Shown: piece by piece, positions 48,421 through 51,887 of the stretch
Numbering within the stretch: the first letter of the stretch is position 1
Layout of the letters: every line of letters starts with the position of its first letter
Assembly (NCBI GenBank): GCA_903869265.1
Contig: CAIPYE010000005.1
Span: forward strand, 1 to 64,000
Length of the DNA stretch: 64,000 nucleotides
From: an uncultured delta proteobacterium
GTDB taxonomy: Bacteria > Desulfobacterota > Desulfobulbia > Desulfobulbales > Desulfurivibrionaceae
Reading direction: 5' to 3'
Program-made: the position numbers and the translations under genes
Notes under the pieces: generated by a model
The model's database searches: none
Seen by the model: the letters and a program-made list of their open reading frames with translations, nothing else
Told to the model about the DNA's origin: nothing

Positions 48421-49263
48421 ATGACGCCCCCTGCCCGCCCCGCCGACACCATCGCGGTCTGCTGCGATGATCCGTCCCTTGCCGCAGAGGCAAAAACTCT
48501 GGCCGAGCGGTTGAACCTGCCGCTGACCTCCGACCCGGCCAATCCCTCCTTCCCCTTGCTGCTGACCCTCACCCCCCACAGGCTGGAGCTGCGCCAAACC
48601 GGCAAGGGTGCGGAAGGCCCGCTCTGGGTTGATTTTGCCGCCGAGGCCCTGAGTTACCGTCGCAAACACACGACCAACCGCAAGGAATCCATTGCCAGGG
48701 CGGCGGGGCTCAAGGGCGGGGCAACGCCGACGGTGCTCGATCTCACCGCCGGGCTGGGACGGGACGGCTTTATCCTGGCCAGCCTGGGCTGCACCGTGCA
48801 GCTGGTGGAGCGTTCGGTGTTGGTGGGCGCGCTCTTGGCGGACGGAATGGAGCGGGCGCGGCAGGAGGAATCCGTTGCCGCAATCATGGCGCGGCTCAGC
48901 CTCACGGTGGGCGACAGCCTGGAAATCCTGGGCCGCTGGCAGGGACCACGGCCGGAGGTGATCTGCCTCGATCCCATGTATCCGCACCGCCGGAAAAGCG
49001 CCCTGGTCAAAAAAGAGATGCGTTTGCTGCGCCTGCTGGTGGGCGACGATCAGGACAGCGACCGGCTGCTGGCCCGGGCGCTCATGGTGGCCGCGAGCCG
49101 GGTGGTGGTGAAGCGGCCACGCCTGGCCCCGACCCTGACAGGCCCGGAACCGAATTTCACGATCAGCGGCAAGAACAGCCGGTTCGATGTGTATCTGGTT
49201 GGTGATCGGGGCGTGATGATACAGCCTGGAGAACGGCGTCCCCCATCCGCCAAAGAGGTATAA
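48421..49263 (+). CDS. rsmJ: 16S rRNA (guanine-1516-N2)-methyltransferase RsmJ
   Basis: A 280-residue SAM-dependent rRNA methyltransferase. Signatures: LWVDFAAEALSYRRKH, SAM motif VLDLTAGLGRDGFILASLGC, LVERS, the catalytic LDPMYPHRRKSALVKKEMR and a C-terminal VVVKRPRLAP. Length is slightly longer than E. coli RsmJ (250). Divergent from kdsB. Just past its stop begins the cassette-like region. Confidence 0.93.
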   Translation: MTPPARPADTIAVCCDDPSLAAEAKTLAERLNLPLTSDPANPSFPLLLTLTPHRLELRQTGKGAEGPLWVDFAAEALSYRRKHTTNRKESIARAAGLKGGATPTVLDLTAGLGRDGFILASLGCTVQLVERSVLVGALLADGMERARQEESVAAIMARLSLTVGDSLEILGRWQGPRPEVICLDPMYPHRRKSALVKKEMRLLRLLVGDDQDSDRLLARALMVAASRVVVKRPRLAPTLTGPEPNFTISGKNSRFDVYLVGDRGVMIQPGERRPPSAKEV

Positions 49264-49345
49264 TTCTTCCCTCCATAAAAAGAACATGGCGGGCTGACCT
49301 ACGCGCTGTCCAGGCACGCCCGAATCGAGCGCTTTGCCGGGAGGA

Positions 49346-49660
49346 TTATTGCTCCGCGCTCCGAACAGCGCTGAGCCACTCCTCGGCCTTCATCACCTTG
49401 CTGAAGCGACTTTGCTGCGTGCCCGGTGCAGTTCTTCTCGATCAACACGTCCCGGCGCCGCTTCTCAACCTCGGGATGAAGCTCCCATTCCGGACTGCCC
49501 TTTCGGAAGACAGGCGATCTTTCCGCTCTGACCGCATGCCGGATCACCACCACGGGAGTATGATTTTCCGCAGCAATATCCATTAGTTTGAGGATATTCT
49601 CCAGGCTTCCCGGCGGATAGGAAATCGGCAGCTTGCCAAAGAAATACTCGTTTTGAACCT
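49346..49660 (-). pseudogene. Isochorismatase-family cysteine hydrolase, deleted and frameshifted remnant
   Basis: One frame encodes QNEYFFGKLPISYP, then PVVVIRHAV and SPVFRKGSPEWELHPEV, the isochorismatase-fold core, but it is cut before the catalytic-Cys segment. A different frame then gives SRFSKVMKAEEWLSAV before a stop, matching the usual C-terminus of this family. The N-terminal ~10 residues and the middle ~60-80 residues are missing, so the gene is dead. It sits behind an attC-like site in the same orientation. Confidence 0.7.
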
Positions 49661-49741
49661 TCCTTCACTTAACAGACAGGACCGCATATCGATGTCGCGT
49701 TGCTTCAGGGCCGGTAGCTCATCAAGCAATTGCTGATTCAT
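49655..49741 (-). pseudogene. Truncated N-terminus of a small DUF6624-like gene
   Basis: An ATG with GGAG 10 nt upstream, ~22 bp after the attC-like site, opens MNQQLLDELPALKQRDIDMR, which resembles the start of DUF6624-type proteins (normally followed by a GYHPRM segment). After ~29 residues the sequence switches to the isochorismatase remnant. It looks like the first part of a cassette gene broken by deletion. Family assignment is tentative. Confidence 0.4.
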
Positions 49742-49762
49742 TTTCCATTCTCCGCGGAAGGG

Positions 49763-49819
49763 GTTCAACGTCGGCCGTAACCCGCGCCTTCAGGCGTCGG
49801 TGTTATGCTCTGGTTAGGC
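49763..49819 (-). other. attC-like recombination site
   Basis: On the minus strand a 57-bp site begins GCCTAAC (RYYYAAC consensus) and ends GTTGAAC (GTTRRRY consensus). Between them the inner arms TAACaCCgaCGCC and GGCGcGGGTTA fold around a TGAA loop with unpaired bases, as in integron cassette attC sites. It lies between a cassette-type gene (DUF2141) and the start of another small gene in the same orientation, exactly where an attC should lie. Confidence 0.65.
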
Positions 49820-49890
49820 GAAGCAACCCTGAATGTGTGGCTTGATTGAAGAAAGAAAGTAGAAATCTTCAATGTTCACACAGCGGGCGC

Positions 49891-50409
49891 TCAGTAATTC
49901 AAGCTCATCGTCAGATCTATGTTCTGCCCATCGTATAGGAAGCTGGCGGCAGAGAATGAAGGAGCGCCCAGCAATGCTTTGGCGTCGTTTGAAAAACCGT
50001 AGCCTTCCGTGGGGCTACCTATCCAGTCGGTATCTAGCTTGCCGTTCATATTCTCATCATGAACGACGGCCATCGCATACGTACCGGGCGGAATGCTTTC
50101 AAAGTCGCAACGCGCCTGGGACTTCCGAATTTTGATGATCATAATATTCGTTGCAAAGTGGAGGAATTCATTAGGGAAACCCTCCGGCGAATCGAACAGC
50201 GCGCACGCTACGGTACCAGTGCTGTTTCTTATGTTCAGAATCTTCACGTGAATTCCGGGGCATGGTGGTTGGGCAAAGGCGAAGGCGGGAAGATTCGCAA
50301 ACATCAGCACTACAAACCATGCTGCGCATCGAACTCCCATTGGGACCAGTATCTGTGGACCCCTGACCGTGGAGGCCGCCGCTGACTTCCGAATGGTTGA
50401 CTCATTCAT
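49891..50409 (-). CDS. DUF2141 family exported protein, probable cassette gene
   Basis: A 172-residue exported protein with a signal peptide (hydrophobic stretch at about 24-45, cleavage near AFAQ). The mature domain is DUF2141: IRNSTGTVACALFDS, IPPGTYAMAVVHDENMNGKLDTDW and YGFSNDA. The family's function is unknown; it is a small beta-sandwich in the periplasm. GGGAGG precedes the ATG. It is flanked by an attC-like site downstream and a half attC upstream, so it appears to be a captured gene cassette. Confidence 0.83.
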   Translation of the reverse strand: MNESTIRKSAAASTVRGPQILVPMGVRCAAWFVVLMFANLPAFAFAQPPCPGIHVKILNIRNSTGTVACALFDSPEGFPNEFLHFATNIMIIKIRKSQARCDFESIPPGTYAMAVVHDENMNGKLDTDWIGSPTEGYGFSNDAKALLGAPSFSAASFLYDGQNIDLTMSLNY

Positions 50410-50483
50410 GATCTTCCTCCCAACTCCAACCTGCATACCCTGTTTGGATCGTAGCGGAGCCCGGGTTACTTCCCTGGATAGAC

Positions 50484-50512
50484 GCCTAACGGCCCGAGTT
50501 GAGCGGGGCGCC
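50484..50512 (-). other. Half attC-like site (3' end)
   Basis: On the minus strand CGCTCAACTCGGGCC followed by GTTAGGC is the classic 3' end of a common attC type. No matching 5' arm lies on its other side, so the site is truncated. It stands 75 bp upstream of the DUF2141 start, at the junction with ordinary chromosome. Confidence 0.55.
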
Positions 50513-50613
50513 ACCTATATTATTATCTCGCGCAAGATAACCTCGACGAAAAATTCCCCCCGATTGCGCTGCATGGTCTTAAAGATTATCTTCCCGACAG
50601 GCAGCTTGTCCAG

Positions 50614-50650
50614 AAAAAAACCCCTGCCTCCGGGTACTCCGAGGCAGGGG
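50614..50650 (-). terminator. Rho-independent terminator of kdnA
   Basis: A 10-bp GC-rich stem (50621-50630 with 50641-50650), followed on the minus strand by seven T. It lies ~30 bp after the aminotransferase stop. Confidence 0.85.
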
Positions 50651-50678
50651 CGTGTACACCGGGACAAATGAGGGGGAC

Positions 50679-51887
50679 TCAGGACAGGTCAGCCACCGCC
50701 TTTTTCACCGCAGCGCCGATCTGGTCGAGCCTGTCTTGGGAAAGCTTGACGGGCACCGGATACACCAGGAGCCGATCCATGATCGCCGCCGATTGCGGCA
50801 GAGCGGCGGCATCATAGACCACCCGTTTTTTGCCGCCCGGCTCCGCAAAAGGCCAGCCTGACTTGGCAAGGGTGGCGCCGACCAGCAGATGCTCCCACTT
50901 GGGGTAGTAATGCCAGGTGTTTTCGGCAAAACAGATGGCTCCGGCCCCGTTTTCAGCCAGGGCCTTTTTCACCTTCTGGGCCTTGTCCTTGTCCGGCAGA
51001 AAAAAGGCGAGAAAAGAGGCGTTGTCGCCCTTCTCGTCAAGGATGGTCCTAAAAGTCACCCCGGGCAGCTTGGCGACAAGCGCCTTCATGGCCCGTTTGT
51101 TCTGCTGCTGTGCCGCGACGATGGAGTCGAGCTTGGCCAGCTGGGCCAGGCCGATGGCACCCTGCAACTCCATCATCCGGTAGTTGGAACCAATAAAACG
51201 GCGGCCCTCGCCGCCCCTGCCACCGGGGTTGACCGCATGATCATGACCGTGGTCATGGTACTCGCTCATATCCCGCCAGAGTTTTTCCTCGTTGGTGACG
51301 ATCATCCCCCCCTCGCCGGTGGTCATGGTCTTGACCGGGTCAAAGGAGAAGGTGCCGCAGGCGCCGAAGGAACCGAGGCGTCTGCCGTTCAGGCTGGCTC
51401 CAGCGGCCTGGGCCGTGTCCTCGAGGACCGGAATACCGTGCCGGTCGGCAATGATCTTGATCTCCTCGATGCGGGCAGGGGCGCCCATCATGTGCACCGG
51501 GATGATCAGCCTGGTCTTGCCGGTGATCTTTTTTTCCAGATCAGCCGGGTCCAAGTTCAGGGTCTCGTCCACCTCGGCGAACACCGCGATGGCCCCGATG
51601 TCAAGAATCGCCTCCCAGGTGGCGACAAAGGTGAAGCCCTGGGTGATGACCTCGTCTCCCGGCCCGATGCCCAGAGCGGCCATGGCAACCTTAAGGGCTG
51701 CGGTGCCGGAGGTGACGGCCTGCCCGTGTTTCACCCCGCAATAGGCGGCAAACTTCTCCTCAAATGTGCGGACCTTGTACACCCCCTTGCGCTGCTCGGG
51801 AAACTCGTAGCGAAACAGCACCCCGGTGTCCAACACCTCCAGGATTTCCTTTTTCTCTTCCTCGCCAAATATCTCAAAACCGGGCAT
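50679..51887 (-). CDS. kdnA: 8-amino-3,8-dideoxy-manno-octulosonate transaminase (KdnA-like DegT aminotransferase)
   Basis: A 402-residue PLP aminotransferase of the DegT/DnrJ/EryC1/StrS family. The PLP lysine is in SFDPVKTMTTGEGG, and TSGTAALK, EDTAQAAG and the EYHDHGHDH segment are visible. The N-terminus MPGFEIFGEEEKKE and the HDHGHDH stretch closely resemble Shewanella KdnA, which converts 8-oxo-Kdo to 8-amino-Kdo. The neighbouring iron alcohol dehydrogenase, 60 bp upstream, would be KdnB that makes the 8-oxo substrate. GAGGAG precedes the ATG. Confidence 0.83.
   Translation of the reverse strand: MPGFEIFGEEEKKEILEVLDTGVLFRYEFPEQRKGVYKVRTFEEKFAAYCGVKHGQAVTSGTAALKVAMAALGIGPGDEVITQGFTFVATWEAILDIGAIAVFAEVDETLNLDPADLEKKITGKTRLIIPVHMMGAPARIEEIKIIADRHGIPVLEDTAQAAGASLNGRRLGSFGACGTFSFDPVKTMTTGEGGMIVTNEEKLWRDMSEYHDHGHDHAVNPGGRGGEGRRFIGSNYRMMELQGAIGLAQLAKLDSIVAAQQQNKRAMKALVAKLPGVTFRTILDEKGDNASFLAFFLPDKDKAQKVKKALAENGAGAICFAENTWHYYPKWEHLLVGATLAKSGWPFAEPGGKKRVVYDAAALPQSAAIMDRLLVYPVPVKLSQDRLDQIGAAVKKAVADLS

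Follow-up and report, generated by a model that had tools for sequence, protein, structure and literature searches.

The DNA between a DegT-type aminotransferase gene and a methyltransferase gene in the window, a 64,000-nucleotide stretch from an uncultured member of the Desulfurivibrionaceae (contig CAIPYE010000005.1), is very probably a decayed chromosomal integron (a probability of about 0.9, judged from sequence comparison). Set beside a complete integron, it has no integrase gene and has attI next to intI in the form of a relic. The evidence consists of an attC site recognized by a covariance model built from relatives, a cassette gene preceding that site, DNA matching the start of an integron integrase gene and its attI, and a second integron relic at the same locus in the nearest related genome.

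The attC site

The attC site occupies 49763-49819 on the reverse strand, is 57 bp long, and aligns column by column with attC sites of relatives. Its outer boxes, R'' = GCCTAAC (49819-49813) and R' = GTTGAAC (49769-49763), fit RYYYAAC / GTTRRRY, and its inner stem, TAAC(A)CCG(A)CGCC / GGCG-CGG-GTTA, carries two bulged A residues, the stems of sister attC sites likewise having bulged bases. The 64-kb window contains four spans of 47-140 bp bounded by RYYYAAC and GTTRRRY, and this one alone passes our stem scorer, with a score of 13.1 on the reverse strand. Among 200 first-order Markov versions of the window, that score or a better one turns up at a rate of 0.005 per 64 kb; we had already seen the site when we devised the scorer. 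A filter requiring a single folded hairpin was abandoned in favor of the stem scorer because it returned no match in many integron loci.

Our covariance model, R1, was built from eight short attC sites of relatives, seven from the genus and one from the family, with the window left out. These training sites were chosen with our own stem scorer, and the model's calibration was short and its E-values are rough. Its structure has changes on both sides of the stem in 9 of 17 pairs, versus 4.8 in shuffles. R1 scores 49763-49819 at 23.9 bits (E 0.0016), the sole match with E ≤ 10 in the window, and its best score over 66 more distant DegT loci (808,916 bases) is 15.6 bits. The first-pass annotation had proposed a 57-bp attC site with R-box ends and a bulged inner stem and had called for a covariance-model search at this position; with a model made from relatives' sites that search is significant, and the proposal holds. 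The isolated fold of the site is ordinary (z -0.53; 58 of 200 shuffles fold equally well), and an Rfam scan of the window yielded no family at its gathering score. We regard the attC site as real and, from its sequence, as a candidate for recombination.

Cassette genes and partial sites

The attC site begins 71 bp past the stop of a reverse-strand gene of 172 aa at 49891-50409 with a DUF2141 domain (Pfam PF09912, 3.7e-32). Homologues in four related loci, L057, L058, L059 and L061, are 75.5, 69.4, 67.3 and 69.5% identical, respectively, and none of these four loci has an R1 match, so the DUF2141 gene is not always a cassette. Directly behind the closest homologue (L057, in G016:C227) lies CCCAAC-CGCTT-GTTATTC, which could possibly be an attC site stripped of its entire inner stem; R1 finds no match there.

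The cassette opens with the GTTAGGC of a half-site, CTCAACTCGGGCC + GTTAGGC, at 50503-50484 on the reverse strand. The same TCAACTCGG is present in the L'' arm of relatives' attC sites (for example L105:5756-5836 and L113:6818-6876), and we infer that the half-site is a scrap of attC next to attI. This half-site had been described before and its sequence is indeed there; the relics of attI and intI that adjoin it had been overlooked.

On the other side of the attC site, at 49655-49762 on the reverse strand and ending where isochorismatase homology begins, lies the start of a second cassette, comprising a leader and 28 codons (MNQQLLDELPALKQRDIDMRSCLLSEGR) and then cut. An earlier suggestion placed the start of a small gene about 22 bp past the attC site. 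An ATG does stand at 49741, 21 bp past the end of the site, but it opens a fragment of 28 codons that runs into a broken isochorismatase gene rather than a whole gene, and no family was found for the fragment. The broken gene (49358-49658, reverse strand) consists of residues 10-85 (49658-49431) and 163-183 (49420-49358) of an intact homologue, L060:2676-3230, to which the two pieces are 80.3% and 76.2% identical and which matches Pfam Isochorismatase at 1e-34. We rejected the isochorismatase piece as a cassette gene because in L060 the gene is intact beside RsmJ and lacks an R1 match; it could be an old cassette that has lost its attC. The window thus contains three joints: the DegT terminator region to the intI stub at a T-run, the cassette start to isochorismatase residue 10, and the place where residues 86-162 are missing.

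Relics of attI and intI

When the interval 49264-50678 was compared with 38 genomes, 15 matched. Positions 50518-50619 matched DNA adjoining integron integrase genes in G007:C28, G016:C74 and G010:C322, and their match to L048:8050-8300 (in G007:C28) has 75% identity and an E-value of 1.1e-13; no other such place occurs in the genome that carries the window. In L048, where the integron integrase is 415 aa long, the matched DNA comprises the integrase's first 20 codons together with the start of attI. By this DNA match the window retains, at 50566-50619 on the forward strand, an intI 5' stub of 18 codons, ALHGLKDYLPDRQLVQKK, with a changed start codon. The stub is short and, compared as protein only, its match is non-significant (E 0.50, 61%), which counts against reading the stretch as a decayed integron. 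The complete integrase in L048 (6913-8160, reverse strand) has about 100 residues ahead of its integrase SAM-like domain, which Pfam places from residue 105.

In full copies, the palindromic repeat that precedes the intI start recurs about 100 bp farther on as GCGCTAGATAATAATATA^GTT, where the first cassette is joined, and on this pattern we take the region with the two repeats as the putative attI. From the attI pattern and a comparison of junctions, the window retains one repeat, TTATCTTGCGCGAGATAATAATATA, at 50515-50540 on the reverse strand, followed by GGT where relatives read GTT. The DNA between the two repeats is absent from the window and from L053 and L054.

The first-pass annotation had also noted that no integrase gene stands beside the cassettes, and this is confirmed: 18 codons are left, and no TIGR02249 match in the whole genome (17 contigs, 99.2% complete) exceeds the cut-off, sub-cut-off matches being found in all 14 control genomes as well. 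No integron integrase reaches E ≤ 1e-60 anywhere in this genome, versus 9 of 17 genus genomes and 139 of 257 genomes across the order. Because the assembly is in 17 contigs, a complete intI could lie in a gap.

In the available text on class 1 and class 3 integrons, the cassette promoter Pc lies inside intI (PMC5559693), so the retained tip of intI may retain a promoter. A possible Pc, TGGACA-16-GATAAT, is found inside the stub at 50585-50612 on the reverse strand and agrees with the consensus in 10 of 12 letters, a match that is not above chance (2 promoter-like sites found versus 1.1 expected). The form T[GA]GAC[AG]-N16-GATA is present on the cassette strand in 11 of 11 aligned attI loci. 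The likeness to class 1 and class 3 integrons, as far as that source describes them, is a promoter-like motif on the cassette strand within the start of intI; unlike them, the integrase here is of another type, the consensus is weak in most copies, and the promoter is putative.

The locus in related genomes

The relic is flanked by the DegT-type aminotransferase gene at 50679-51887 on the reverse strand (Pfam PF01041, 9e-92) and by a methyltransferase gene at 48421-49263 on the forward strand (Pfam PF04445, SAM_MT, 9.9e-83), which we take to be RsmJ-type. The DegT terminator region (50610-50678, reverse strand), joined at the T-run to the intI stub, was matched behind DegT in L064, L065, L098, L100, L102, L103, L105 and L108.

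In the nearest relative, genome G001, a relic related to that of the window lies at this locus too (L105), 2.4 kb behind DegT. Three ORFs come after DegT there, and then an intI stub of codons 1-40, a full attI, a cassette ORF judged SDR-like by inspection, an attC of 81 bp, another ORF, an attC of 61 bp and a repeat at the contig end. R1 matches the 81-bp attC at 38.7 bits; the 61-bp attC was in the R1 training set. On L060, a different contig of G001, RsmJ is accompanied by intact GNAT and isochorismatase genes, and R1 found no attC behind the isochorismatase gene. A repeat a few hundred bases long lies in multiple copies at both contig ends (L105:6850-6975, L060:1-480, L060:1640-1860) and may explain the assembly break.

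Among the genus genomes examined, the window and G001 are the only two with an integron at this locus. The DegT-to-RsmJ interval of seven genus genomes (L097-L102, L104) has neither a match to attI/intI DNA or IntI nor an R1 match at E ≤ 1; in L103, from an eighth genome, DegT and RsmJ are not arranged face to face. The attC-bearing sequence could have turned up as ordinary intergenic DNA in syntenic genomes, an outcome that the first-pass annotation named as contrary to its claim, and in those seven genomes it did not.

intI stubs across the genus

The attI pattern, which was written from loci already known, occurs at 10 places in 8 of the 17 genus genomes, and the reversed pattern occurs at none. 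Three of these places have an adjoining intI (that of L050 in two frames) and seven have none in the stretches read. With the addition of G014:C28 (L052), found by DNA search, 8 of 11 attI loci are without a complete intI, and all eight retain DNA of approximately the first 17-20 intI codons or more (L051, L052, L053, L054, L055, L056, L105 and the window at 50566-50619). L052 has the same neighbor gene as the intact L048, and loss of intI in place is therefore the likely reading there. A candidate C-terminal intI piece in L052 was dropped, since its match falls in the neighboring gene.

L051, L053 and L055 have an identical break, at GCTG^TTTTTT, and no match was found among their left flanks over 1500 bp. 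It is conceivable, though improbable, that integrons of this genus repeatedly shed intI at one G^TT past the Pc inside the intI start, and that the integrase itself may drive this by recombination between that G^TT and other sites, with an expressed but locked unit of promoter, attI and cassette either left behind or moved. If true, mobile integrons would carry within themselves a path toward fixed genes.

attC sites elsewhere in the genome

R1 matches with E ≤ 0.05 are present in 17 of 17 genus genomes. In the genome of the window, R1 finds at least 10 distinct other places, six with E < 0.01 and the others weaker; 150 candidates per genome were scored (649 were found in this genome, the window's own site falling outside the 150), and the counts are lower bounds. 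Eight of these places (L141-L148) are at C17:319095-319157, C15:253644-253707, C1:365858-365927, C10:119187-119244, C4:116521-116611, C4:36171-36232, C14:28646-28711 and C15:316318-316379. In all eight, the best of the scattered sites, the attC begins at -35 to +17 nt relative to the stop codon of a small ORF on its own strand; 3.9% of 40,000 random places fall within the wider range of -40 to +30. The eight proteins have no Pfam match at E ≤ 0.01. A ninth place (C15:353294-353360, or L139:1501-1567; E 0.62) was discarded as a site behind a gene, as it runs over the final 57 bp of an ORF opposite to the strand of the better match; it is a near-perfect inverted repeat with attC-like ends. The tenth (C17:56045-56074) is a partial match with E 3.1.

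The insert at C15:253644 is missing from the same place in 7 of 7 relatives read. DNA past its attC matches G008 and G006 starting at the TT of G^TT. The same gene is preceded in G006 by a non-attC sequence, AAGTTG^TTATGC, and in G008 that G reads A. An integron integrase would be expected to produce such a G^TT boundary, which fits insertion at attG sites as related by PMC12901181 and PMC11023631, both citing Loot et al. (2024, Nat Microbiol). We found no clean empty site for the scattered cassettes at C1 and C4:116521, relatives having other DNA or the flank occurring only in this genome. Behind the cassette of L145, a short repeat (query approximately 1726-1808) that is REP-like by eye matches many places in the genus, several of them in G008:C1.

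Discussion

We propose that a chromosomal integron once stood between DegT and the isochorismatase and RsmJ genes, and that its integrase would have inserted cassettes, each with a terminal attC hairpin, at attI. Comparison shows what the decay has left: 18 codons of intI joined to the DegT terminator, one repeat of attI, one complete cassette (DUF2141 and its attC), and a following cassette that is cut at 28 codons and fused to an isochorismatase gene without its start and middle. As no integron integrase was found in the genome, the DUF2141 cassette is presumably now fixed and would be movable only by an incoming integrase; it may still be transcribed from the putative promoter in the intI stub.

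Two other explanations were considered. An integrase encoded elsewhere might have inserted the cassettes at an attG site, with no platform ever present here and the attI/intI DNA arriving with the insertion. Scattered attC sites in the same genome, some with exact G^TT boundaries, speak for such traffic, as does the common boundary with unrelated left flanks in L051, L053 and L055, which is as expected for a moved unit. From what the citing papers relate of attG insertion, the single chromosomal cassettes elsewhere in this genome resemble it, unlike the window locus with its attI and intI stub in a genome where no integrase was found. The longer intI stub and full attI at the same locus in G001 better fit a platform that was once complete, and we consider the attG explanation quite unlikely. 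Less probable still is a chance resemblance of the attC site and half-site to integron parts in ordinary intergenic DNA. Such an accident would agree with the ordinary isolated fold, with R-box pairs arising by chance (the four spans in 64 kb) and with the lack of R1 matches behind the DUF2141 homologues of four relatives. It is at odds with a match of 23.9 bits against a background maximum of 15.6 and with the rarity of equal sites in the Markov versions, and the attI and intI relics alongside, together with the R1 match, already contradict it. The decayed chromosomal integron remains our preferred reading.

The stretch had been described as a decaying CALIN-like cluster. The attC site, the cassette, the lack of an integrase gene and the decay all stand; the attI relic and 18 intI codons point to a former integron platform and not merely a cluster of attC sites, and there is one full attC only. 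In the portion of the literature available to us, CALIN are clusters of attC sites without an integron integrase, proposed to be degraded integrons, and IntegronFinder 2.0 by default calls them from at least two attC sites (PMC9024848). The window shares with CALIN so described a cassette and attC with no integrase gene nearby, and decay; unlike them, it has one full attC and the scrap at 50484-50503, fewer than two, and retains what is left of attI and of the 5' end of intI.

The loss of an integrase has precedent in the parts of two papers that we draw on, in which 43% of integrase genes seem inactivated (PMC3108266) and intI is truncated or absent in most Xanthomonas strains (PMC12444791). 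Like the sedentary chromosomal integrons with inactive or lost intI of those accounts, the locus has lost its integrase and kept cassettes at the platform; unlike them, intI here is nearly wholly deleted and a second deletion has cut the array, and in this genus platforms sharing one attI type occur at several loci. Our search of the open-licence literature turned up no paper about integron relics from these bacteria. The type of decay is already known and the window is one more case of it, ordinary in kind and informative in detail.

Related genomes hold intact, stubbed and near-erased stages of one integron type, so that the death of an integron can be traced stepwise. Such remains would escape rules that require a complete integrase or a pair of attC sites. 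A genome that keeps its cassettes after losing the enzyme that moves them illustrates one way in which captured genes could become ordinary ones.
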